A stretch of DNA of 53,828 nucleotides from a virus, in IMG/VR virus record IMGVR_UViG_3300037325_000128, positions 1-53,828 of that record. One strand, given 5' to 3'. Position numbers and translations under genes: made by a program. Each line of letters opens with the position of its first letter. Positions within the stretch are counted from its first letter, which is position 1. The notes under the pieces are model-generated. The model did no database searches, was not told where the DNA came from, and was given only the letters and a program-made list of their open reading frames with translations. Positions 7,819 through 43,569 of this stretch are shown piece after piece.

Positions 7819-8176
7819 TCATTTGTTCATTGCGTTTTCTATTTCGCGTGTAATTTCGTCTTCAGCATCCGAAAGAATCTGCTCAAGTTTGGAAAAACGT
7901 GTAAGCTGCACAAGCTCTTTCGCCTTTTCACTCACATGCTCGTCGTATTTGGAAACAAGACGATCCCACATTTCTTGAGCGGTTTTACAGAAGTTTACCG
8001 GCACGCCATTAATAGTAAGTTGAACTACTACATGGGCACTGTTGAGTGGTACATTTGGCAGGTTAAAGTGGTCTTGCAGGTCGGCGCGGTGCAGCCGCGC
8101 GAGTCATTGCTTCGATAAGCATGATGGCCGGCATTGTTCGGTCGGTGCAGTTCACGATTTCTGATGTAAAATTCAT
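7819..8176 (-). pseudogene. Frame-disrupted small gene (about 118 aa if repaired)
   Basis: The 5' part starts at ATG 8176 with a strong GGAGCTTAACT RBS and reads MNFTSEIVNCTDRTMPAIM, LIEAMT. The 3' part, in another frame, reads LQDHFNLPNVPLNS, VQLTINGVPVNFCKT and on to EIENAMNK. The two join between about 8063 and 8106 if one base is lost or gained. Either a mutation, a sequencing error or (less likely) programmed frameshifting. Confidence 0.65.
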
Positions 8177-8198
8177 AGTTAAGCTCCGGATATAAGAT

Positions 8199-8414
8199 TT
8201 AGTCAGTAGAGAGAAGTTTTTCTTTTTTCAAATAGTAAGCCAGCAGCTTACTCTGAACTTGGTCGGCGACACTTGCATGATTATATACGGGGTCTTCGGC
8301 GAAGCGCAGTGGGGAGTCGACCCATGCTCTCCTTACCATAAACGCTTTTACAGCGGCACGGTGTATTTTTTGTGCAGGATTAAATTGCACGGTTGCAGTT
8401 TTGCTAAGAATCAT
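8199..8414 (-). CDS. Hypothetical protein, 71 aa
   Basis: Starts MILSKTATVQFNPAQKIHRAAV; contains PLRFAEDPVYNHASVADQVQSKLLAYYLKKEK. No recognised domain. A TATAAT-like element lies at 8457-8462 on the minus strand but without a good -35. Function unknown. Confidence 0.6.
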   Translation of the reverse strand: MILSKTATVQFNPAQKIHRAAVKAFMVRRAWVDSPLRFAEDPVYNHASVADQVQSKLLAYYLKKEKLLSTD

Positions 8415-8510
8415 AATTAAACACCATATAAAGCTTTGTTGCTATGTCGAGTCTTATTATACTATAAGTTAGTAATGAACGCTGGCATGTCTCATAGGAT
8501 GGATGCTTAA

Positions 8511-8777
8511 TTATTCCTTTAAGAGTTCGTAAGTGACATCGGTATGCCCTTCAGTTACATTGATTACCGTGTTGTTCACGGTGATTGACAAGGCTTTTGA
8601 TAGATCGGGGCTTCACATTGACATTGAGGTGCCCTGACCAGTCAGAACTCTCAGCACCGCGAGCTAAGATATAAGAAAATGTGCGCAGTGGCCCACCAGA
8701 CTATCCTCATATACTTGCCTATAGCCGGTGGTGTGGTCTACATAGACAATTTGATGCACTTCGTAATGTTTGGTCAT
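8511..8777 (-). pseudogene. Gene with two compensating frameshifts (about 88 aa if repaired)
   Basis: The 5' third reads MTKHYEVHQIVYVDHTTGYRQ. The middle continues in another frame as GGPLRTFSYILARGAESSDW, GHLNVNV. The 3' third returns to the first frame as DLSKALSITVNNTVINVTEG, ending YELLKE (TAA at 8511). The sum of the two shifts is a multiple of three. No single frame is open throughout. Confidence 0.6.
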
Positions 8778-8802
8778 TGAATTGGCTGATATTTTATGTG
8801 AT

Positions 8803-8877
8803 TGGTCCGGCGTAGAGGAATCGAACCCCTATTGATAGCTTAGAAGGCTACTGTTCTGTCCGTTGAACTAACGCCAG
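8803..8877 (-). tRNA. tRNA-Arg (UCU), CCA encoded
   Basis: 75 nt. Acceptor CTGGCGT pairs with ACGCCGG (one G-T), discriminator A, CCA at 8805-8803. D-arm GTTC/GAAC, anticodon stem GTAGC/GCTAT with loop CTTCTAA (anticodon TCT), T-arm AGGGG/CCTCT with TTCGATT. Confidence 0.95.
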
Positions 8878-8881
8878 GTAT

Positions 8882-8980
8882 TTAGATGGACCAGCCGGAA
8901 TAAACTGGAATGTATACAGTGGCCCACATATGCCAGCCGTGTGCAAAGTTGATTAAAAAGCTGTTAACAATATCTTTCAT
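8882..8980 (-). CDS. Small protein, 32 aa
   Basis: Reads MKDIVNSFLINFAHGWHMW and ends VYSGWSI. Strong AAGGAT RBS 5 nt before the ATG and a good promoter upstream. Aromatic-rich; function unknown. Confidence 0.6.
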   Translation of the reverse strand: MKDIVNSFLINFAHGWHMWATVYIPVYSGWSI

Positions 8981-8997
8981 ACTTATCCTTTTTGCTA

Positions 8998-9026
8998 ATT
9001 ATAGCAGTCTATTATCTAATTGTCAA
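8998..9026 (-). promoter_or_regulatory. Sigma70-type promoter (TTGACA-17-TATAAT)
   Basis: Consensus -35 TTGACA at 9026-9021, 17-bp spacer ending TGC, consensus -10 TATAAT at 9003-8998. Drives the 32-aa gene and tRNA-Arg leftwards. Confidence 0.75.
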
Positions 9027-9034
9027 GCTATTTA

Positions 9035-9220
9035 CTAAATTACTAGATAGTAAATGACATTCGTTATCAGCGCAGGCATAGTAGAAGCTGCGAGAGCCAC
9101 AACAATCAATACTACCAACGGAAGGGAGGTGACACCGAATGCATTTTCCACCAGATGGGAAAACAAAAGATAAAATCCCATAAAAACCAAAATCATCAGC
9201 AACGTCACGAGTACTGTCAT
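9035..9220 (-). CDS. Small membrane protein, 61 aa
   Basis: Two hydrophobic segments, LVTLLMILVFMGFYLLF (residues 3-20) and LPLVVLIVVALAASTMP (33-50), joined by a short loop SHLVENAFGV. Likely an inner-membrane hairpin protein; size would suit a holin or imm-type protein, but nothing proves it. Confidence 0.7.
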   Translation of the reverse strand: MTVLVTLLMILVFMGFYLLFSHLVENAFGVTSLPLVVLIVVALAASTMPALITNVIYYLVI

Positions 9221-17139: not shown

Positions 17140-18342
17140 TTATTTACGTTTGTTCTGCGGACTGTGGTCGTCTGGCTCGTACCATGCGGTCATCCCGAAC
17201 GGCGCGATAAGTCGATGTGCAGCGTCACCATGAATCAGAAACAAAGTGTCGCAGTACAGTTCGTCCCCCCAGCTGCCGCAAGGATATCCATCTGTCATCA
17301 TAATGAATCGTTCTGGCACGATGTCATTCTCCTTCATGAAATCCCAGTTACACGTGAAATCAGTACCACCTCCGCCCTTAATTTCGTATTCATCAACCTC
17401 GTCGATATTTTCCGGAGTAAACTTTGCGTAGTTATATACTCTGGTATCAAAGCACCAGACTTCCAACTCATAGTCACCGAACTGCTCCATGATACCTTTT
17501 GTTTCACTCAGTAAGTCACGAAGCATGCCTTCGCTCATCGAGCCCGAACAGTCGATAGATACGGCAGCTTTCACCTTGACGTCTTCTTTTGTCGCTGGCA
17601 GATAGATACCGCTGGACTGCGACTTTCTGGAACATCGACTCCATGTATAGTCGTTCTTAATCATAGACTGAATTTTCATGTTAAGGATCTCTCGCCAGTC
17701 CATCTGTGGCTCAGTCAGGTCCTGAATCATGCGTCTTACGCCAGCAGGCGTATTTCCGGCGCCAGCGGCGTTTGCTGCCTGCATAACGGCATTTCGAATC
17801 TCGTCTGACAGGATACGGCGCGCCTCCTCGTCCAAGGGCTCGCCCTTGCCATCACCTGGTTCCAAGTGAACGTCGAATTCTGGCCAGTTTTGATCAGGAT
17901 CTTTCTCCAACAACTCGTACACTTCTTCGGCAAACATGCCTTTGTATTTAGGATTAAAACATGCCTGCACACCCGAAGTCTTCGGGTCAGGTAGCTTGCC
18001 GATATTGTGCTCGTGCAGCTCATAGTTGATTACATAGTCTGCCGCGGCATTCCACAACTTAGGCTTTCGGCTGCCTCGGCGGCTCATGTGGTCATAAACG
18101 CAGTGCTCGACCTCATGTGCAACAAGGAAGATTGTTTCCGGTTTAGTCAGCTTGGAAATGAAGTTGCGGTCATAGTAGAAGTACCGACCGTCGGTTGCAG
18201 CAGTATTGCACCACTCATCGTCAGTAGCATCTCGCAAGATAAGCCGAGTCGCTAGTGTACCCCAGAATGGTTGATGTAGCAGCAGAGAGATTCTGGCACG
18301 GGTAAGTTGTTCGAGTACTGATTCAGGTGAGTTATTTGCCAT
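17140..18342 (-). CDS. VWA-domain protein with metallopeptidase-like N-terminus, 400 aa
   Basis: N-terminal half (about 1-250): LVAHEVEHCVYDHMSRR has HEVEH, an HExxH zinc-protease-like motif, followed by NAAADYVIN. This matches the VWA-like/DUF2201-type proteins partnered with MoxR ATPases. C-terminal VWA domain: MIDAS motif DCSGSMS at about 270 and GGGGTDF later. Such pairs act as chaperone/metal-insertion machines in bacteria; the phage role is unknown. RBS AAAGGAAAAC; promoter 18389-18417. The MoxR partner is 0.5 kb upstream. Confidence 0.88.
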   Translation of the reverse strand: MANNSPESVLEQLTRARISLLLHQPFWGTLATRLILRDATDDEWCNTAATDGRYFYYDRNFISKLTKPETIFLVAHEVEHCVYDHMSRRGSRKPKLWNAAADYVINYELHEHNIGKLPDPKTSGVQACFNPKYKGMFAEEVYELLEKDPDQNWPEFDVHLEPGDGKGEPLDEEARRILSDEIRNAVMQAANAAGAGNTPAGVRRMIQDLTEPQMDWREILNMKIQSMIKNDYTWSRCSRKSQSSGIYLPATKEDVKVKAAVSIDCSGSMSEGMLRDLLSETKGIMEQFGDYELEVWCFDTRVYNYAKFTPENIDEVDEYEIKGGGGTDFTCNWDFMKENDIVPERFIMMTDGYPCGSWGDELYCDTLFLIHGDAAHRLIAPFGMTAWYEPDDHSPQNKRK

Positions 18343-18388
18343 AGTTTTCCTTTAAATGTCAATTGCACGTTCGTATGTACATGTTTGT

Positions 18389-18417
18389 ATTATAGCTGCA
18401 AATAGCGTAACTGTCAC
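18389..18417 (-). promoter_or_regulatory. Sigma70-type promoter (GTGACA-17-TATAAT)
   Basis: -35 GTGACA at 18417-18412, 17-bp spacer, -10 TATAAT at 18394-18389. Drives the VWA gene with a 40-nt leader. Confidence 0.6.
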
Positions 18418-18421
18418 TTGG

Positions 18422-18664
18422 TTATACTAGAGTATTTGAAAATGTAAGTGCCTCATCTAGCGATCCATTGAATATTTTTTCTCGATGATTATCTAGTAAC
18501 TCGATTCGATTTACATATGTCAGTGGTTCGCCGAAAGGAGTTTCGGCAGGACCGACATGTGTAGATTGGTATCGCAGTATACCTTTTATCTTTTCAGAAT
18601 TGCGATTTGCAAATTTTTCCAGAACATTGTAGTTATGATAGGTGATTAGTGTATATCTTGACAT
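18422..18664 (-). CDS. Hypothetical protein, 80 aa
   Basis: MSRYTLITYHNYNVLEKF, then TYVNRIELLDNHREKIFNGS and LDEALTFSNTLV. The ATG (18662-18664) lies 6 nt from a consensus -10 and has no RBS: one of the best leaderless candidates. Inserted between MoxR and VWA genes. Function unknown. Confidence 0.65.
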   Translation of the reverse strand: MSRYTLITYHNYNVLEKFANRNSEKIKGILRYQSTHVGPAETPFGEPLTYVNRIELLDNHREKIFNGSLDEALTFSNTLV

Positions 18665-18670
18665 GCTTGT

Positions 18671-18699
18671 ATTATAGCTGGTTCTAATATGAATGTCAA
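18671..18699 (-). promoter_or_regulatory. Consensus sigma70 promoter 6 nt before an ATG
   Basis: TTGACA (18699-18694), 17-bp spacer, TATAAT (18676-18671), ACAAGC, ATG. Confidence 0.8.
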
Positions 18700-18810
18700 C
18701 ATGAAATTAAGTGGCAACAGCTTGCCAGATACAAGCATCGTTGCCGCAGTTCCATATTTTAATATATCCATTATTTCTCATATGATTGTATTAGGTGCCA
18801 TAGAATGCAG

Positions 18811-18835
18811 AAAAGCCCGCAACTTGCGGGCTTTT
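18811..18835. terminator. Terminator hairpin after MoxR gene
   Basis: AAAAGCCCGC, loop AACTT, GCGGGCTTTT: 10-bp GC-rich stem with A and T flanks. The surrounding 18700-18871 gap holds only a 24-codon ORF (18707-18781) without RBS. Confidence 0.9.
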
Positions 18836-18871
18836 GTCTTTGCTTATTGACCCTTACGGCCTAATAAAATC

Positions 18872-19969
18872 CTAGTCTTCCAAGATATACTTACCATACT
18901 TCTCATGGAAAGTCTTGAACTGCTTGAGCTCACGGTGGTTGATAGGCAGCTGATAATCTCGAAGCGCTGTCTTAGCACCCAACACAATCATCTCAGTATG
19001 GAAATTACTCATCATGAACTCGAAGAAATAATCCACACACTTATGCCATTCTGCCATGTCATATCCGTCTTCTTTGCTCTTTGCCCGAGCAACCCACTCT
19101 TGTAGAGTGTAACACATGGCGATCGACAAGGAATACATGGCGCTCAAGTCTTTAACGTTCAGGTCCTTTACCTTGCCAGTCAGTACATCTTCCGGCTTAG
19201 GCATACGTGATGCAACTTTACGGTGTGCAGAGAACTCAATTGCCAATCCATCTCCTACAGTTCCAGCCACTAGTGCAGTATTCATCGAATCGCTCATCTC
19301 ATCGCTGATCAACTGGCTCACGAACACCCACGAACGAGGAGTAGCAAACGCCTTGCTCGGGCTCTTGGGATCAAAGTCGAACAACTTTTGTTTGTGGTGA
19401 CTCAAAAAGCCGACCACGTCCGGGTGAATACGTGCGCCAATTGCCCACTTTTGCCAGTCTTCGAAGTTCGAACTCATCTCGATGTGAACCAAACGGTTTG
19501 CCAATGGACTCGGCATACGGTATGTAACACCTTTGTCGCTGTCTCGGTTACCTGCACACACCATGCTCACTCCCTTTGGGAGATGATATTCGCCGACCCG
19601 GCGGTTGAGAATCAGCTGATATGCTGCGGCTTGCACACTTGGAGCGGCAGCGTTGATCTCATCTAGGAACAGGATTGCATTAGACAGGTAGGTATCAGTC
19701 GGCAAGTCAGCGGGCTGAGCCCACTTCATGCTCTTGGTCGCTGGGTCAAAGTATGGAATACCTTTAATGTCAGTAGGCTCCAACAACAGCAAACGCATGT
19801 CAATTACTGGCCTGTCGGTTTCTCTGCCGATTTCTGCAATCAGTTCAGATTTACCAATACCGGGAGGTCCCCAGATCATTGCGGGACGACCAACCTTCAT
19901 ACAGCGGGTCAAGAGTGTTCGGACATCGCGGGGACGTTCGACGCGGTGATTATCATGTGTTACTGCCAT
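18872..19969 (-). CDS. MoxR-family AAA+ ATPase, 365 aa
   Basis: Walker A GPPGIGKSEL (about residues 36-45), Walker B ILFLDEINAA (about 98-107), sensor-like CAGNRDSD and PSPLANRLVHIEM. RPVIDMRLLLLEPTDIKGIPY is typical of MoxR/CbbQ-like ATPases. Expected to work with the VWA protein at 17140-18342 in ATP-driven remodelling or activation of a target protein in the cytoplasm. RBS GGAGAAAACGC. Promoter 20008-20036 and a strong terminator make it monocistronic. Confidence 0.93.
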   Translation of the reverse strand: MAVTHDNHRVERPRDVRTLLTRCMKVGRPAMIWGPPGIGKSELIAEIGRETDRPVIDMRLLLLEPTDIKGIPYFDPATKSMKWAQPADLPTDTYLSNAILFLDEINAAAPSVQAAAYQLILNRRVGEYHLPKGVSMVCAGNRDSDKGVTYRMPSPLANRLVHIEMSSNFEDWQKWAIGARIHPDVVGFLSHHKQKLFDFDPKSPSKAFATPRSWVFVSQLISDEMSDSMNTALVAGTVGDGLAIEFSAHRKVASRMPKPEDVLTGKVKDLNVKDLSAMYSLSIAMCYTLQEWVARAKSKEDGYDMAEWHKCVDYFFEFMMSNFHTEMIVLGAKTALRDYQLPINHRELKQFKTFHEKYGKYILED

Positions 19970-28248: not shown

Positions 28249-29442
28249 TCACCCTTTGATGCAGATAATCTGTTTTAGTGTTTCCACTACATCCACAAGG
28301 TCAGTTTGTGCAGCCATGACTTGGTCAATGTCCTTGTACGCACCCGGAATTTCATCGATCACATCGGCGTCTTTGCGGCATTCTACACCAGCGGTCTGCT
28401 TTTCCAAATCCAGCGAGGTAAAAAGTTTCTTAGCCTGGTTACGGCTCATTTTACGACCAGCGCCGTGGCTACACGAACAATAGGATCCTTGGTTACCTTT
28501 CCCACGCACAATGAAGGACTTCGCACCCATTGACCCAGGTATAATTCCCATCTGTCCAAGTTTCGCAGATACCGCACCCTTCCTGGTTATCCACATTTCT
28601 TCATTGTTGTGTTCTTCCCACGACGTGAAGTTATGATGACAGTTTACAACTTCGCCAATCGTAATCATCTGAGGAAACTTGTTCTTTAAAACAGCAAGTA
28701 CCAGATTCATCATGGTGTCGCGATTAAATCGCGCATAGTCTTGTGCCCAGTACATAGCCTCGATATATGCATCAAATTCTGCCGTACCTTCGTCTAACCA
28801 TGCCAAATCTTTATCCGCTAGCCCCCAGCCGCGAACAGCAGCCTGCTTCTTAGCCAACTCGATTGCCACAGTACCGATTTGATTACCAATGCCGCGAGAT
28901 CCCGAATGCAACATTACCCAGACACGATCTTCTAAGTCCAAGCAGATTTCGATGAAGTGATTGCCTCCACCCAGTGTTCCAATCTGGCGACCGATTCGTT
29001 TTTCGTCAGTGCGTCCAAGTTTTGCCTTCATAGCTAGCTTGTCCCATCGCTCCATCGTCTTGCGCAAATTCTTACGTAGAACATCGGCATACGGGCCGGA
29101 GACTGACGGTATTCCTGCCTTATGCTCGTTGAAGCCTACGGGAATATCTCTCTCAATCTGATTACGTAGGGAATACAGAGACTCTGGAAGATCATTCGCA
29201 GTAAGATTAGTCATGACTGCGCACATACCACAGCCGATATCCACACCCACGGCTGCCGGTATGATTGCATTACGAGTTGGAATTACCGAACCCACAGTTG
29301 CACCTTTACCAATATGAACATCTGGCATGATAGCCATATGTCCTGATAGTATTGGTAACTGGGAGATATTAATAATCTGCTCTAGAGCAGATTCCTCAAC
29401 TTCCATGTCTCCCACCCACATTTTTACATTCTCAATTTCCAT
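28249..29442 (-). CDS. rtcB: RtcB RNA ligase, 397 aa
   Basis: GTP- and Mn-dependent ligase joining RNA 2',3'-cyclic phosphate or 3'-phosphate to 5'-OH ends. Seen: MPDVHIGKGATVGSV, VGVDIGCGM (metal Cys), LGGGNHFIEI, LHSGSRGIGNQIG, and SCSHGAGRKMSR with the guanylated His. Full length. RBS AAAGGTAAG. In phages it probably repairs tRNAs cut by host anticodon nucleases (inference). The 57-aa gene 5 nt upstream may be its partner. Confidence 0.96.
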   Translation of the reverse strand: MEIENVKMWVGDMEVEESALEQIINISQLPILSGHMAIMPDVHIGKGATVGSVIPTRNAIIPAAVGVDIGCGMCAVMTNLTANDLPESLYSLRNQIERDIPVGFNEHKAGIPSVSGPYADVLRKNLRKTMERWDKLAMKAKLGRTDEKRIGRQIGTLGGGNHFIEICLDLEDRVWVMLHSGSRGIGNQIGTVAIELAKKQAAVRGWGLADKDLAWLDEGTAEFDAYIEAMYWAQDYARFNRDTMMNLVLAVLKNKFPQMITIGEVVNCHHNFTSWEEHNNEEMWITRKGAVSAKLGQMGIIPGSMGAKSFIVRGKGNQGSYCSCSHGAGRKMSRNQAKKLFTSLDLEKQTAGVECRKDADVIDEIPGAYKDIDQVMAAQTDLVDVVETLKQIICIKG

Positions 29443-37470: not shown

Positions 37471-37578
37471 TTACCCGTTTCTCTGATCCCATGCATGAAT
37501 GAATTTTGACAGACGTTTCATCTTATCTTGTTTTGCTCTTTCCAGACATTCCTCTTGATGTTTATTTATTTGTTTCAT
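37471..37578 (-). CDS. Small basic protein, 35 aa
   Basis: MKQINKHQEECLERAKQDKM, then KRLSKFIHAWDQRNG. ATG overlaps the end of the epimerase gene; GGGAAAG lies before it. Helical and charged; function unknown. Confidence 0.5.
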   Translation of the reverse strand: MKQINKHQEECLERAKQDKMKRLSKFIHAWDQRNG

Positions 37579-38497
37579 ATTTTCTTTCCCAATTCCATGC
37601 ATGAAATATCATGTCTTCTATACTGTATTTAGGCTTCCAATCTAGGACTCTATGTGCTTTCGTGATATCTGCTCTAAGACACACAGGATCGCCCTCTCTT
37701 GCTTCATGCTCAACTATACGCGGATGCAACCCAATAACTGCTTCGGCTGTTTGAATGATCTTCATTGTGCTTACGCCTGCTTTGCCGCCTCCCAGATTAA
37801 TAACTTCGCCAGCGCCACCGCCGAGTAAGTAATCTATACCAGACGAATACGCAGTTGCTATATCCTGAACATGTACATAATCCCTTACGGCATTACCATA
37901 TACAGTAGTCACACTAGCATCTAATATATTTCTGCAAACAGTGGGTATTAAGTGTGCATACGGCCGTCTGAAATAACCACACTTGCCACTGGGGTCAGCA
38001 CCAGATATGTTGAATAATCTAAATATTAGATAATTAATGCCGTATGCCCTGGCATAATCTTTAATCATTAATTCCCCAACTACTTTAGTGGACGCATATG
38101 CGTTGACGGGGCTGTATGGTAAATCTTCTTTAAGTAGCGACTCGGTTTGATTGCCGTATATATTTCCTGTGCTACTAAAAATAATATTCTTTATTCCAGA
38201 CCTAACCATGGCATCCATCATAGTTTTCATTTTTATGACATTGTTTTCGTAGTATGTACTAGGACTGTGTAAGCTGGGCTGCACAGTAGCCTCGGCAGCA
38301 TTATGTATTACAAGATCAAATTTAATACGATTATAGCTTAAAAACTCAGCATAGTCTGCGTTGATTAGGGTAGCGGGAAGACTCCTGTCCCTTATTGAGT
38401 GATCTACTACAGTTACGGTGTGCCCTATTGCGTTTAATTCAAACACCAGCTGAGTTCCTATAAATCCACAACCACCAGTTATAAGTACGTTACTCAT
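37562..38497 (-). CDS. NAD-dependent sugar epimerase/dehydratase (GalE-like), 311 aa
   Basis: Extended SDR: NAD motif GGCGFIGTQL at the N-terminus, FSSTGNIYG with the catalytic Ser/Thr, YASTKVVGE with the YxxxK pair, and C-terminal RADITKAHRVLDWKPKYSIE typical of UDP-glucose 4-epimerase-like enzymes. Would interconvert nucleotide sugars in the cytoplasm; substrate not predictable. Overlaps the upstream gene by 4 nt. Part of the sugar cassette with 40737-43569. Confidence 0.9.
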   Translation of the reverse strand: MSNVLITGGCGFIGTQLVFELNAIGHTVTVVDHSIRDRSLPATLINADYAEFLSYNRIKFDLVIHNAAEATVQPSLHSPSTYYENNVIKMKTMMDAMVRSGIKNIIFSSTGNIYGNQTESLLKEDLPYSPVNAYASTKVVGELMIKDYARAYGINYLIFRLFNISGADPSGKCGYFRRPYAHLIPTVCRNILDASVTTVYGNAVRDYVHVQDIATAYSSGIDYLLGGGAGEVINLGGGKAGVSTMKIIQTAEAVIGLHPRIVEHEAREGDPVCLRADITKAHRVLDWKPKYSIEDMIFHAWNWERKYETNK

Positions 38498-38817
38498 ATT
38501 CCTCCAATCCCTACTAACTGTTCAACGAGCTTATAATGGTCGTAGGCTTCTTTCAATGATGGAAACTTGGCCTGCAACTCTTCGTTGGGAGCTAGTATTG
38601 CTAGCCTTTTTTCAATTTCTGCTAGTCTTCCCATCACCTTTAACATATCCTCATTTTGTTTTAAGTCTAAGTTATTTGCTGACCATGCGGACGACCCCAT
38701 CGAAGATATACCGATACCGATATTACTTGATGTAGTGATATTACTCGATATACTCTTATTATTTGATATATTGCATGCGTCGGTCGGTGTGGTTACTACA
38801 GCGGGTGTGTTAGTCAT
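38494..38817 (-). CDS. Conserved phage protein, Ser/Asn-rich N-terminus, 107 aa
   Basis: Low-complexity N-terminus (NKSISSNITTSSNIGIGI), then LAEIEKRLAILAPNEELQAKF and SLKEAYDHYKLVEQL. The ending (E-x-R-L-x-I-L-x-P-N-x-E-L ... L-K-E-A-Y) is common to small phage proteins of unknown function. Confidence 0.7.
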   Translation of the reverse strand: MTNTPAVVTTPTDACNISNNKSISSNITTSSNIGIGISSMGSSAWSANNLDLKQNEDMLKVMGRLAEIEKRLAILAPNEELQAKFPSLKEAYDHYKLVEQLVGIGGI

Positions 38818-38818
38818 G

Positions 38819-39151
38819 TTATATTATAAATTTTATTTTAAAAAACAGAGCATCATCGGCGTCTATGAAGGCTATATAGAATGTGTTAGTCTCTGACCAG
38901 GTTGCTGGCTCGGATCCTGCGAGTACTATAGAGACTTTACCATTGCAATTATCATCTAGCCAGGCTAGAATTTCTGAATATTGCTGAACATCTACTCTGC
39001 ATGTTACTACCGTATTAAATCCCGGGCCAAACTTGAGTCTTAGATGTTCAGGTTCTTTATTTTCTTTTTTAACATATTTTGTTTCATCGGGCTTAGATGG
39101 TCGTAGAAAGTTATACCATTTAGATGATCTAATTCGTGTTGAAAACATATG
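38819..39151 (-). CDS. Small protein of the DAxxFKL tail family, start uncertain
   Basis: Core LRLKFGPGFNTVVTCRVDVQ, then LAWLDDNCNGKVSIVLAG and TFYIAFIDADDALFFKIKF. The first ATG (39151) would overlap the deformylase gene by 110 nt in another frame, so the true start may be a non-ATG codon near 39040. Function unknown. Confidence 0.55.
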   Translation of the reverse strand, partial: HMFSTRIRSSKWYNFLRPSKPDETKYVKKENKEPEHLRLKFGPGFNTVVTCRVDVQQYSEILAWLDDNCNGKVSIVLAGSEPATWSETNTFYIAFIDADDALFFKIKFII

Positions 39152-39558
39152 GCATCCAATCCATCTAAGTACAGCGTAAATAAGTTGCCGTCTTCGTCCA
39201 ACGCCGACACTGTAACTTTGTCTGACCTCTCTACCATGGCAAAGATTTTTGGAAAACTCAGGCAACCTTCTTTCCATTTAACACTACCGGTTCCTACCAC
39301 AATTTCTGGATTTATAAAGCAGTGTCGGCGCTGGCCACTTTCAGATGTATCCATAACAAATATACGCAGTGGTACTCCTACCTGATTGGCTGATAAGCCA
39401 ACACCATTACTATTGTACATCGTGATAAACATATTCTGAATAAGTTTCTTAATTTCCTCTGTAATTTCTGTCACAGGATCACATACAGTTTTTAAGAACT
39501 TATCCGGATATATTCTGATATCTAGTAACTCAGGGGTGGGGAGGTTAATCTGGCTCAT
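39040..39558 (-). CDS. def: Peptide deformylase, 172 aa
   Basis: Removes the N-formyl group from nascent proteins. All three motifs: GVGLSANQVG, EGCLSFP (metal Cys) and CFQHELDHLNG (HExxH). Start at MSQINLPTPELL (39558), overlapping the queD stop. Phage deformylases are known from marine T4-like phages. Confidence 0.95.
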   Translation of the reverse strand: MSQINLPTPELLDIRIYPDKFLKTVCDPVTEITEEIKKLIQNMFITMYNSNGVGLSANQVGVPLRIFVMDTSESGQRRHCFINPEIVVGTGSVKWKEGCLSFPKIFAMVERSDKVTVSALDEDGNLFTLYLDGLDAICFQHELDHLNGITFYDHLSPMKQNMLKKKIKNLNI

Positions 39559-39895
39559 ATACGAGGGTGGCGCCGTTTTCCCCGTCCTCACTTACTTGAA
39601 CTGCAATTTTTCTTCCGGGGTATTTGTTGGATATGTAATCAATTAGGTCCTCAGCTAACATTTCACAGCTCTTATAGTCTACCTGTAATGTAGCTGCTGA
39701 ATACAAAGCCTCCAGTTCTCTTTTGAAGAGAATAAACTCAATATCTCTGTCATTATGAAACACATCGATATCAACCCTAAAGTGAAAAATGTGCCTATGG
39801 GGATGAGCCAAAAATTCTACACCCTCTGGCGCATTCGGATACCGATGTATACCTTCTTTCTGAAATGTTACAAAAATTTTCCTAGAGTTAATCAT
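39545..39895 (-). CDS. queD: QueD-like 6-carboxytetrahydropterin synthase, 116 aa
   Basis: LAHPHRHIFHFRVDIDVFH carries the zinc histidines, EFILFKRELEAL matches the helix after the first strand, and SCEMLAEDLIDYI followed by VQVSEDGENGATLVY corresponds to the second half of QueD. About the length of bacterial QueD. Makes the precursor for QueE. The match is by motif order and neighbours; a short pterin-synthase-like variant is possible. Confidence 0.8.
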   Translation of the reverse strand: MINSRKIFVTFQKEGIHRYPNAPEGVEFLAHPHRHIFHFRVDIDVFHNDRDIEFILFKRELEALYSAATLQVDYKSCEMLAEDLIDYISNKYPGRKIAVQVSEDGENGATLVYEPD

Positions 39896-40735
39896 TTATT
39901 CGCCTTTGACCTTTTTTGTCGACTTTACAGGCTTGCTCAGTGGATCTTCGGTAGCCCCATCAGCATACGCCTCGGCAGCGTCGACGGGTGCCGATATAGC
40001 CTTAATAACATCATCGGGATCCGATTTCAGAGATGACCCAGATAACGCGTCGAGCCCGAGTTCGGTAGAATTTAGATTCGGTGTATCTACCCTAGGTGCA
40101 GCTAGCACCACAGCTACATTGGCTCTAGGCTGAATCACTACAGCAACTTTTTCTGTGACAGACAACGATTTAACTGCTGATGGTGCGTTAATAATCATAT
40201 CATCCCCATACTCTTTCCAATGGGTGAATCGGTTACTATCAGTAACTTCATGATGGTTCAAGCACCATACTCCCGGATTAGTTTCTCCAAAGTTACTATC
40301 GTCGATTTTTATCGTAAGATTAATACTGGATGTCTGAACGCAGGGAATAGGCACAGCAAGCATAGGGATGAAATTCCTGGATTTCCAGATGCCGGGATTG
40401 AGAACTTTAAGAACATCATAGTGCTTGTGCGCCGGATAATCTAGTGTTACTAGAAATCCTCTATCTAGCAGAGAATGGATTTGCTTTTCCCAGTCGGACG
40501 CAAAGGTATCGCCTACCATATACACATCGTTTCTTAGTTCTAGCGAATCAAATGATCTGCTGCAACCGATGAAGATATGTGATGCCTTGTGCTCTCTGGC
40601 TAATTCTTCCACGATCGAAGTTTCCTGAAGACCACGAACGAATAGTGTTTTCTTTCCAAACGCAGTTGTATGCTCGATTTCAGGACCAATGAAGAAGTCT
40701 GCTTCCTCGTAACCTTTTCTTACAAATGTTTCCAT
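39896..40735 (-). CDS. Unknown protein linked to queD, 279 aa
   Basis: Residues 1-190: ADFFIGPEIEHTTAFGKKTL, REHKASHIFIGCSRSFDS, DRGFLVTLDYPAHKHYDVLK, NPGVWCLNHHEVTDSNRFTH. The last 80 residues are low complexity, Ala/Pro/Asp-rich, ending KSTKKVKGE. I recall relatives next to queD/queE genes in T4-like aquatic phages, which suggests a role in 7-deazaguanine metabolism, but no enzyme family is evident. RBS AAGGAAATAAT. Confidence 0.7.
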   Translation of the reverse strand: METFVRKGYEEADFFIGPEIEHTTAFGKKTLFVRGLQETSIVEELAREHKASHIFIGCSRSFDSLELRNDVYMVGDTFASDWEKQIHSLLDRGFLVTLDYPAHKHYDVLKVLNPGIWKSRNFIPMLAVPIPCVQTSSINLTIKIDDSNFGETNPGVWCLNHHEVTDSNRFTHWKEYGDDMIINAPSAVKSLSVTEKVAVVIQPRANVAVVLAAPRVDTPNLNSTELGLDALSGSSLKSDPDDVIKAISAPVDAAEAYADGATEDPLSKPVKSTKKVKGE

Positions 40736-40736
40736 A

Positions 40737-41804
40737 TTATTTCCTTAGTAATTGTGCTACCAGATTAGTAGCTGTGAAGTATTTCTTTAGCAGATGAGGT
40801 GCTAATGTATGCTGAACATCAAAATGCAGACTATCGTAGTTATCCATAATGGATCTGATGCTGGCTACAATTTGATGCTTATGTGTTAAGTAACTAGCGA
40901 ATGATTCGGTCCATGTATCGGGATATAAATATTTCCCCTCATACATTTCTGTATAACTTAGTCTATTAGGCAAGTATGGATATACACCGAGTAACGCACC
41001 CTCAAACGGACTTATCCCCAGTGTTTCCTGTTGATTAGCAGACCATAATAATTTTGACTTAGCTAGCAACATATGATATTCTGTCTTTGACAACTTTCGA
41101 TCCTGACATATAACAAATTGATATTCGGGCATTGCTGCTGCAAGATCTCTAAATATCTCAGGTTGTTTCTCAGGAGCCAGTCTGTGCGGGAATATAATTA
41201 TGTTTTCTTTCTTAGTATGATTATATCGAAGAAAGAGCTCAGGCATATATTCCATGGGCCATCCTGTTATGCCGACTTTTCCAGATGTCATGTCAGTACC
41301 TAGTACACTACCAAATAGTTGACTATGAAATTCTGTTGCGAACCAATTGTAGTCACATGCATGGAAAATAGCTGTTTCGGTAGAATAAGTCCATTTCTTA
41401 TCCTTGATTAATCTGCCTAAGAAATCATGCTTATCATAGCTGCCTGCATGCCATAATGCGTGTATTTCCACCGGAATACCTAACAATTCGCTCATATATT
41501 TGAGCTGAAGTATGCCAGTATGCCATGCATCTGTAAACAGGAATTTATCACCAGGTTTTACATCGTTTGTGAACCTACGTGCAATATCGTTTATTTGGTT
41601 GTTCTTATAGATATTAGTTGCTTGGAAATTCAGGAAGGCACCGGGTGAAGCCTCTATAGATTCTCCACCACCGGATATGTTAATAATTTCTACATCCACA
41701 TTTGCTTTAATTGCTTCTTTTCGAAGTAACGCAGGTATATGACTCTTCCACTCACATGTATACCGAGTCGGCACAGACTCTAAATCTATAACAAATATTT
41801 TCAT
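40737..41804 (-). CDS. Glycosyltransferase-like protein, 355 aa
   Basis: GT-B-like layout: N-terminal MKIFVIDLESVPTRYTCEW; C-terminal NIIIFPHRLAPEKQPEIFRD, YQFVICQDRKLSKTEYHML and LGISPFEGALLGVYPYLPNR, resembling the nucleotide-sugar binding half of GT4-type enzymes. ATGA overlap with the dehydrogenase gene. The acceptor could be DNA, a virion protein or a cell glycan. Confidence 0.7.
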   Translation of the reverse strand: MKIFVIDLESVPTRYTCEWKSHIPALLRKEAIKANVDVEIINISGGGESIEASPGAFLNFQATNIYKNNQINDIARRFTNDVKPGDKFLFTDAWHTGILQLKYMSELLGIPVEIHALWHAGSYDKHDFLGRLIKDKKWTYSTETAIFHACDYNWFATEFHSQLFGSVLGTDMTSGKVGITGWPMEYMPELFLRYNHTKKENIIIFPHRLAPEKQPEIFRDLAAAMPEYQFVICQDRKLSKTEYHMLLAKSKLLWSANQQETLGISPFEGALLGVYPYLPNRLSYTEMYEGKYLYPDTWTESFASYLTHKHQIVASIRSIMDNYDSLHFDVQHTLAPHLLKKYFTATNLVAQLLRK

Positions 41805-42709
41805 TTTTTCCACTCTACATATCCTCTTGCATACCCAGCTGGTCGAGATACTCCCTCCTCGAAGGCTAGCTTTATCTCGGATTCCCTGTCATAAGACTTT
41901 GTCCACAGGCTACTGGTTTCTAGTTCATTGTATTTTATAAGCTCCACTGCACTAACCATCATATCGTAAAATCTATGATTTCTGGGACTAGGGAACTTAA
42001 TATCCACTGCATTCCACAGAAACTGTCCAAATGTCAGCGTCGCCCCGGGGTGCTTCTCTGCTGCCAAGACAATTTTAGCACGTTCTTCATATAAGTTCAA
42101 GTTTAGATACTCTGGCTTTTCCGAGACATCGATAACGTATTTAAATTTTCTGCCAAGCAGTTCATTCGCACTTATTAGTTCTGCATTTTCCTGCATGCTC
42201 CAGAAGTCCTTATTTGCACCGCCAACCACAAATACTTTATTTTTACATCTGCGCTCAATTGTGGTATAGATAACAGTTGCTAAAAACCCAGATCCTAACA
42301 ATAGTATATCATCTTTACTTGTCACATCTTCTAGCAGACTTTCTGCAATGTTCATTGCACATGCAACGGGTTCTACTATGTATTTAGGATTTGCATCAGG
42401 CACCTTAACAAACATTCTGTCTTTGCAATTATAGTAATCGGCGAATGCGGGCTCTCCCCTGGTAGCAACATAGTCACCCTCTTTGATGCCCGATATATTT
42501 TTTCCAATCTTCGTAACTACGCCCAGGCTCTCATGCCCCTGTATGGTCTTAGGCAACAATTGAAACGTACCACAGTACATATCAAGGTCTGACCTGCACA
42601 TACCAGTGAATATAGACTTGACTTCAATCTCGTCCGGAGTGATTTCTGGCTTTTTCCACTCTTCTTCGTATATATCCCGTTTACCGCCTGTGTAAAAAAG
42701 TCTTGTCAT
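41801..42709 (-). CDS. Zinc-type alcohol/sugar dehydrogenase (MDR), 302 aa
   Basis: GroES-like domain with MCRSDLDMYCGTF (catalytic zinc Cys), IQGHESLGVVTKIGKNISGI and GDYVATRGE; Rossmann half with LLGSGFLATVIYT. Shorter than typical MDR enzymes (about 340). No structural-zinc cysteine cluster visible. Probably oxidises or reduces a sugar or polyol with NAD(P); substrate unknown. Shares one base with the next gene (TAATG type). Confidence 0.85.
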   Translation of the reverse strand: MTRLFYTGGKRDIYEEEWKKPEITPDEIEVKSIFTGMCRSDLDMYCGTFQLLPKTIQGHESLGVVTKIGKNISGIKEGDYVATRGEPAFADYYNCKDRMFVKVPDANPKYIVEPVACAMNIAESLLEDVTSKDDILLLGSGFLATVIYTTIERRCKNKVFVVGGANKDFWSMQENAELISANELLGRKFKYVIDVSEKPEYLNLNLYEERAKIVLAAEKHPGATLTFGQFLWNAVDIKFPSPRNHRFYDMMVSAVELIKYNELETSSLWTKSYDRESEIKLAFEEGVSRPAGYARGYVEWKK

Positions 42710-43569
42710 TAAAAATTCTCCAGGAAGGCATGAATATCAGTATCTAAAATCATAGAAGCTTTTTCTTCTTTCATCATTGTACCATATGCTTCTGCGGGGC
42801 ATAGTCCAAATTCCCATTCGTATGTGGTGCCGTCATCGAAGAACAGAGTAATTGACTGCTTGTCGTACCCCTCTTTCCATGATGCTATCAGTCTGACAGA
42901 TATATTATCGATATTAGTAATAGCGGATGCACAGTCGTCGACATTATATCTTCCGGCTTCATTTACCGAACCGTAATCTGTTGACCCAATTGTATTAAGT
43001 GACCATCTGCGATAAGAGGATTGTCTCCAGCTGACCTCTGCCATTTTCTTAGCCCCAAACATTTTTGCACCGAATGTATATAAATGGGGCATCAAGTCAC
43101 TACTAACTCCGGAGAATGAAAATCTAGAATCAGTGAACCATGATCCAGGGTTTGGTACTCTGTTCTTATTCAGCCACATAATGTCGACCCCAATTACCGT
43201 ACGCTCTTTAAGTAGTGTAATAATATCGCCATAGTTATCCCTATACAAGTTATTCTTTACTAAATGAAACTTTGTATTTTGAAAATCATCCATGAGATCA
43301 TGCCAGTCCCGTAGCGACCCCACTCCGGGCTTTTCAACGAATATGCGCTTGGTTCTGTGAACCGCAAGCTTTCTTGCGATTGGTTCGTGTGTATAATTCG
43401 GAGTACATATTACTGCGATATCATATGATACTCGCACTTCATCTATGTTTTTGTATTTTACATTAGGCACAGTAGTATCTAATATGTCTACTTCATACCC
43501 TAGTTTCTTTAATTCCGGATAATATACATTCGCACCAATTCCGCCTAATCCTACTAATAGTGCCTTCAT
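42709..43569 (-). CDS. Gfo/Idh/MocA-family oxidoreductase, 286 aa
   Basis: N-terminal NAD motif VGLGGIGANVYYPEL, ICTPNYTHEPIARKL, and VEKPGVGSLRDW with the EKP lysine. C-terminal domain beta-rich, VSWRQSSYRRWSLN. Typical of sugar or inositol dehydrogenases acting on nucleotide sugars or polyols. Second redox enzyme of the cassette. Confidence 0.88.
   Translation of the reverse strand: MKALLVGLGGIGANVYYPELKKLGYEVDILDTTVPNVKYKNIDEVRVSYDIAVICTPNYTHEPIARKLAVHRTKRIFVEKPGVGSLRDWHDLMDDFQNTKFHLVKNNLYRDNYGDIITLLKERTVIGVDIMWLNKNRVPNPGSWFTDSRFSFSGVSSDLMPHLYTFGAKMFGAKKMAEVSWRQSSYRRWSLNTIGSTDYGSVNEAGRYNVDDCASAITNIDNISVRLIASWKEGYDKQSITLFFDDGTTYEWEFGLCPAEAYGTMMKEEKASMILDTDIHAFLENF

Follow-up and report, generated by a model that had tools for sequence, protein, structure and literature searches.

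A glycosyltransferase (GT) and accompanying sugar-enzyme genes are embedded in a 7-deazaguanine gene cluster of the virus record IMGVR_UViG_3300037325_000128, a linear-class record of 53.8 kb that we analyzed over its whole length of 53,828 nt (the window). We judge it reasonably probable that this is a DNA hypermodification locus, in which the GT would glycosylate the base inserted by the transglycosylase DpdA, using a sugar nucleotide tailored by phage enzymes. Our argument draws on gene identities assigned by fold or family, operon structure, co-occurrence with deazaguanine genes, recurrence in unrelated phages, and the swapping of tailoring genes between loci. The cassette consists of a Gfo/Idh/MocA oxidoreductase (Gfo), an MDR dehydrogenase, the GT, and a GalE-like SDR protein, and all four open reading frames (ORFs) are present on the minus strand; a conserved 279-aa protein (h279), a QueD-like protein and QueE are encoded nearby.

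Co-occurrence of sugar and deazaguanine genes

Relatives of each protein were sampled from IMG/VR as the best 80 per profile search, and neighborhoods of ±10 kb were scored with profiles for dpdA, queE and the QueD-like gene. At least one of these genes turned up in that interval in 105 of 106 GT loci, the lone exception being a 4.7-kb fragment, in 79 of 79 Gfo loci, and in 77 of 79 MDR loci, where the exceptions were a 5.4-kb fragment and L187 (L numbers are our handles for contigs and loci), a 245-kb contig with dpdA and GT elsewhere. Gfo accompanied MDR in all 79 loci, and MDR or Gfo loci without GT were nearly all truncated by a contig end. Bacterial GT homologs were found on three contigs: L273 has DpdA beside the GT, L274 has the QueD-like gene beside it, and the third is a 4.6-kb fragment. 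That the sugar genes travel almost only with deazaguanine genes is strongly supported by these counts. The first-pass annotation had proposed such a link from location, had pointed to co-occurrence with dpdA in other phages as a check, and had held that a cassette common in phages lacking dpdA and queE would speak against it; the link is borne out, the only system-free cases being short fragments.

Six loci, the closest kin of the window, share the order DpdA-Gfo-MDR-GT-h279-QueDlike-QueE. Two of them, L113 and L117, have the SDR in place as well (DpdA-Gfo-MDR-GT-h279-QueDlike-SDR-QueE), and among the six only these show a strong SDR match beside the cassette; the SDR belongs to the conserved set only loosely. 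The h279 protein, conserved over its first ~170 aa, is present in 58 of 73 and 31 of 33 GT loci, where its gene adjoins the MDR, GT or QueD-like gene; among named phages it occurs in the PA5oct group and ACP17 only.

Recurrence in unrelated phage lineages

Five unrelated lineages of named phages have the GT at 0-2 bp from a deazaguanine gene: the PA5oct/Paride group (including Pseudomonas phage PA5oct), Sinorhizobium phage Phosso, Acidovorax phage ACP17, Xanthomonas phage X1 and Synechococcus phage BUCT-ZZ01. QueE was detected in 265 of 50,697 phage records, and random placement would give the observed adjacency with p of 0.002-0.004 per lineage (Fisher combined p ~6e-9), in a rough test that assumes uniform gene placement. 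In PA5oct and about ten sister phages the arrangement is dpdA-GT-QueDlike...QueE, with FolE-QueD elsewhere, and the window DpdA is 50% identical to the protein adjoining the GT in PA5oct. A linked Gfo-MDR-h279 triad is located at 250.9-253.1 kb of PA5oct (L280:2870-5147), 25 kb from dpdA-GT, so that this cultured phage has nearly the whole gene set. The deazaguanine system of PA5oct was noted in an earlier survey, whose passages on it make no mention of a glycosyltransferase (PMC7824862). In ACP17, X1 and BUCT-ZZ01 the transglycosylase-like protein encoded beside or near the GT is a different one and carries DSGG and SYDSTTH motifs. The BUCT-ZZ01 cluster contains two different GT-B type glycosyltransferase genes (L275:5007-6350 and 7998-9164).

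Xanthomonas phage PhiXhv-12 encodes a distant relative of the GT and, 0.6 kb away, a Gat-QueC fusion annotated as an aminotransferase. The surrounding run of genes (L271:1447-9852) encodes a Leu/Phe-tRNA transferase-like protein, a GNAT protein, Gat-QueC, a PIG-L deacetylase and the GT, and looks like another deazaguanine hypermodification cluster.

These distributions bear on the possibility that the sugar genes act on virion proteins or a host surface polysaccharide and occupy the block by chance. Sugar and GT clusters of jumbo phages and cyanophages have been interpreted as surface polysaccharide systems (PMC7824862). Near-total co-occurrence with dpdA and queE and direct adjacency in five unrelated lineages nonetheless make this explanation very unlikely for the present cassette, as does its setting, since the neighbors of the locus are replication genes (DNA polymerase, 5'-3' exonuclease) and not structural ones. 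Virion glycosylation, put forward in the first-pass annotation as the simpler alternative, is therefore demoted by the deazaguanine link and its recurrence.

Organization of the locus and gene identities

The genes of the locus are as follows; no near-identical phage DNA was found for the window.

51354-48400, minus strand: DNA polymerase B, upstream of dpdA
48316-47573, minus strand: gene in the clamp position, between DNA polymerase B and dpdA
47329-45737, minus strand: dpdA, putative DpdA-like DNA-guanine transglycosylase, 530 aa (tRNA-guanine transglycosylase, or TGT, fold of the AlphaFold model)
43569-42709, minus strand: Gfo/Idh/MocA oxidoreductase, putative sugar dehydrogenase, 286 aa (PF01408)
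42709-41801, minus strand: MDR zinc-type dehydrogenase, 302 aa (PF08240)
41813-40737, minus strand: GT, GT4-type GT-B glycosyltransferase, 358 aa (fold and EX7E motif)
40735-39896, minus strand: h279, conserved 279-aa protein with no assigned function (alignment of relatives)
39895-39545, minus strand: QueD-like protein, phrog_17812 (phrog match)
39591-39040, minus strand: peptide deformylase, start uncertain (PF01327, E 6e-53)
38497-37562, minus strand: GalE-like SDR, 311 aa, optional sugar-nucleotide epimerase (PF01370, TIGR01179)
37377-36505, minus strand: QueE, 7-carboxy-7-deazaguanine synthase (phrog_2076)
35175-34135, minus strand: 5'-3' exonuclease, after queE at the end of the ordered block

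Several small ORFs separate dpdA from a tight operon of Gfo, MDR, GT, h279, the QueD-like gene and peptide deformylase; further small ORFs, the SDR and queE follow. Gfo and MDR overlap by 1 base, and MDR and GT by 4 bases (ATG start at 41804) or 13 (GTG start at 41813), in agreement with the overlaps of a few bases noted earlier. The cassette had been described as lying between queE/queD and dpdA. The flanks formed by queE and dpdA stand, but the supposed queD lies inside the cassette, between the GT and the SDR, and the SDR falls outside the operon: it is 2.2 kb downstream of the Gfo-MDR-GT trio, split from it by h279, the QueD-like gene, peptide deformylase and small ORFs, and adjoins queE.

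The GT has no Pfam match at normal thresholds, scoring 14.3 bits against Glycos_transf_1 (cut-off, 26.4 bits), which its distant homolog in BUCT-ZZ01 just clears with 26.5 bits. Its AlphaFold model (pLDDT 85) has 146 Foldseek matches in the PDB below 1e-3; the top matches are all GT-B folds, the best being BshA (E 4e-10), and others include the GT4 enzymes MshA, glycogen synthase and SenB. Identity to BshA and MshA is 11-14%. PDB sequences gave nothing with the GT profile and, with the single sequence, chance matches only (all E >0.5). The glutamates of the EX7E motif, E263 and E271, are invariant across 21 sequences and kept in PA5oct, Phosso, ACP17 and X1; the first is Asp in BUCT-ZZ01 and the second is Asp in PhiXhv. 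In fold and motif the GT resembles GT4 enzymes, of whose family it is a candidate member. A QTMAN-type identity was rejected, as no such Pfam family occurs among the phage GT matches.

For DpdA, which has no TGT Pfam match, identity was taken from the fold. The model (pLDDT 65, moderate confidence) has just four PDB matches below 1e-3, all tRNA-guanine transglycosylases (E 1e-4 to 5e-4), and the protein carries DSGG at 105 and FDAASP at 301. We place it in the TGT superfamily by predicted fold, with insertion of a deazaguanine into DNA as its putative activity. QueE matches phrog_2076 (E 9e-48) and contains the radical-SAM motif CNLTCSFC (CX3CX2C); it scores below the NCBIfam equivalog cut-offs.

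The QueD-like protein matches phrog_17812 (E 2e-34). No Pfam PTPS match was found in 14 members of its family, and its alignment lacks the catalytic Cys and Asp-His that a canonical phage QueD set displays as C33 and D75-H76; the queD identity given by the first-pass annotation is rejected on these grounds. A weak local match to canonical QueD was seen (hhalign, 43% over 43 columns), and PDB sequences returned nothing useful. Invariant residues are His17, His33, His35, Glu78 and Glu103, whose possible correspondence to the zinc His triad and substrate Glu was judged by eye.

The other sugar enzymes were assigned by Pfam, which together with the GT fold upholds the four gene identities proposed earlier. 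Gfo scores 32.6 bits against PF01408 (cut-off, 24), and its best PDB relative is DgpA (E 7e-9), a sugar C3-dehydrogenase. The EKP motif (lysine K80), Asp158 and His162 are conserved in its viral relatives, except for the EKP of PA5oct. MDR scores 40.8 bits against PF08240 (cut-off, 23.5), and Cys38, His59, Glu60 and Glu113, the first three being zinc ligands, are invariant in 6 relatives. The SDR matches PF01370 (E 2e-45) and UDP-glucose 4-epimerase in the PDB (E 5e-59), and has a YASTK motif at 134. Since it reaches 231 bits against the GalE equivalog TIGR01179, below the cut-off of 262.3, its sequence makes it GalE-like rather than a GalE UDP-glucose 4-epimerase.

Peptide deformylase, which may be a passenger or an accessory of the operon, also recurs within deazaguanine clusters of several phages (window 39591-39040, L276:4341-4922 and L040:9212-9745, the last deformylase-like by sequence). 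Elsewhere the window encodes, as many large phages do, an RtcB RNA ligase (28249-29442) and, together with a VWA/metallopeptidase partner, a MoxR-like ATPase (17140-19969).

Constant and exchangeable genes

Gene content was counted in 91 non-redundant GT loci, 52 of them with both flanks. Among the latter, QueE and the QueD-like gene are each present in 51 and DpdA in 49, and the GT is the core gene of the cassette. The sugar enzymes vary by locus: Gfo/MDR, a DegT-like aminotransferase fragment, a UDP-sugar dehydrogenase or another SDR may be present, and 18 of the 52 have none. Immediately 3' of the GT, other loci encode a DegT aminotransferase-like protein (22/91), a UDP-sugar dehydrogenase or SDR proteins. 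On the GT tree, the presence of Gfo/MDR requires at least 11 changes, 6 of them forced by starred branches. A constant GT accompanied by swapping sugar genes is the pattern expected if the transferase stays fixed while the enzymes that supply its sugar are exchanged. The DegT-like protein, at 193 aa about half the normal length, is usually encoded directly after the GT (L050:6441-7022 and 21 other loci).

Gfo and MDR might alternatively modify the deazaguanine side chain and not a sugar, for example by making, through oxidation and reduction, the hydroxyl used by the GT. Their location between dpdA and GT, their linkage to h279 and the QueD-like gene, and the placement of the PA5oct triad away from its GT are consistent with this idea, which would also supply a hydroxyl handle that is otherwise missing. 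We consider it decidedly unlikely, as both families are mostly sugar or alcohol enzymes (the best PDB relative of Gfo being DgpA), clear nucleotide-sugar enzymes occupy the slot beside the GT in other loci, and most GT loci lack Gfo/MDR.

FolE is encoded near the GT in 62 of 91 loci, and a purine phosphoribosyltransferase-like gene (PF00156) in 54 of 91 (e.g. L020:15090-15623) as well as in the BUCT-ZZ01 cluster (L275:3090-3551); it perhaps salvages guanine released by DpdA. Genes for MetK (12 loci) and an IMPDH/GMP reductase family protein (4 loci) also recur in deazaguanine clusters.

Discussion

Which base receives the sugar can be approached through the pathway genes. FolE is present in 29 of 32 related records and canonical PTPS elsewhere in 27 of 32; QueC exceeds its cut-off in 3 of 32 and is full length only in PhiXhv-12. 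With QueC generally absent, the pathway probably ends at 7-carboxy-7-deazaguanine (CDG), unless the host supplies QueC, and CDG is probably the level of the base that DpdA inserts. A GT acting on another DNA base, such as a 5-hydroxymethyl-pyrimidine, would have a classic precedent in the glycosylation of 5-hydroxymethylcytosine by phages, with linkage reflecting a shared base-modification island, and 13 of 34 records carry a gene of the thymidylate synthase family, which includes hydroxymethylases. This family is missing from the other 21, including ACP17, X1 and the L113 contig, so that hydroxymethyl-pyrimidine is disfavored as a general acceptor and the explanation becomes highly improbable.

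Under our preferred interpretation, FolE, QueD and QueE would make the 7-deazaguanine base, with FolE and canonical QueD encoded beyond the fragment or, in relatives, at other sites; the QueD-like protein would probably rework the base side chain, and DpdA would exchange guanine in DNA for the deazaguanine base. The GT could then add a sugar to it, most likely once the base is in DNA. Gfo and MDR may work together as redox partners in tailoring the sugar nucleotide, for instance by oxidizing one carbon and then reducing it, and an epimer may come from the SDR. The acceptor, the sugar, the bond, the order of steps and a protective purpose are all what we infer from the gene sets.

Several observations weigh against this interpretation. 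The IMG/VR loci share one replication-gene backbone and are therefore not independent, amounting to about one lineage. MDR is absent from Phosso, ACP17, X1 and BUCT-ZZ01. In PA5oct, Gfo lacks the EKP lysine and MDR the zinc Cys and His; catalytic and nucleotide-binding residues of the triad are degenerate, yet linkage is kept, and these copies may, from their sequences, be inactive. The main chemical gap concerns the hydroxyl or amine to which the sugar would be joined: CDG bears a carboxylate but no hydroxyl, and should the QueD-like protein take that carboxylate off, as the decarboxylase DpdL reportedly does, no obvious handle is left. Finally, the closest GT4 folds (BshA, MshA and SenB) act on small molecules, and the GT could therefore act on a free base or other metabolite. 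The GT and sugar enzymes would then belong to the deazaguanine pathway but glycosylate a free base, nucleotide or other small molecule, before insertion or alongside it, and not DNA, a scheme in which the phosphoribosyltransferase-like gene of BUCT-ZZ01 and 54 of 91 loci might also find a place. We regard this as unlikely: a glycosylated free base would need to fit DpdA, T4 DNA-hypermodifying glycosyltransferases work after replication, and salvage of DpdA-released guanine explains the phosphoribosyltransferase equally well.

DpdA-type 7-deazaguanine DNA modification has been described in phages 9g, CAjan and nt-1, where a FolE/QueD/QueE pathway is likewise paired with a transglycosylase for placing the base in DNA. 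No glycosyltransferase was described in those systems (PMC6884629). The loci studied here generally lack QueC and have a GT and sugar enzymes as fixed components. Cellulophaga phage phiST is one of the phages that carry a relative of the QueD-like gene without this GT, having no GT match. Cui et al. reportedly found dCDG and dDG in phage DNA in 2023, along with a decarboxylase, DpdL; such phages also have FolE-QueD-QueE without QueC, and the QueD-like protein could conceivably be DpdL.

Sugars on DNA bases serve as protection in T4, with its glucosylated hydroxymethylcytosine, and in Shewanella phage Thanatos, which places a pentose on cytosine (PMC12838424). The acceptor in both is a pyrimidine, in contrast to the 7-deazapurine proposed here, and the T4 glycosyltransferases are not among the 50 fold matches listed for the GT, whose closest folds are GT4. 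BshA and MshA share fold and EX7E motif with the GT and differ in gene context and in their small-molecule acceptors. In animal tRNA, a 7-deazaguanine derivative is known to carry a sugar: QTMAN and QTGAL make mannosyl- and galactosyl-queuosine, in which the sugar is attached to the cyclopentene diol of queuosine (PMC12518689).

Our literature search, which did not extend to Cui 2023, a 2024 MMBR review, Iyer 2013 or preprints, turned up no report of glycosylated 7-deazaguanine in DNA; this negative does not prove novelty. To our knowledge, it would be the first purine-type DNA base to bear a sugar. We see roughly an even chance that several unrelated phage lineages carry glycosylated 7-deazaguanine in their DNA, with a swappable tailoring module varying the sugar between phages. 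Since the GT is present in cultured phages, the proposal is open to direct testing. If true, it would explain the fixed GT in the deazaguanine clusters of the cultured jumbo phages of the PA5oct/Paride group, and of ACP17, X1, Phosso and BUCT-ZZ01, and the variation in sugar enzymes points to an arms race centered on the sugar. A sugar-bearing deazapurine would be a chemical class new to DNA and a counterpart of the mannosyl- and galactosyl-queuosine of tRNA.

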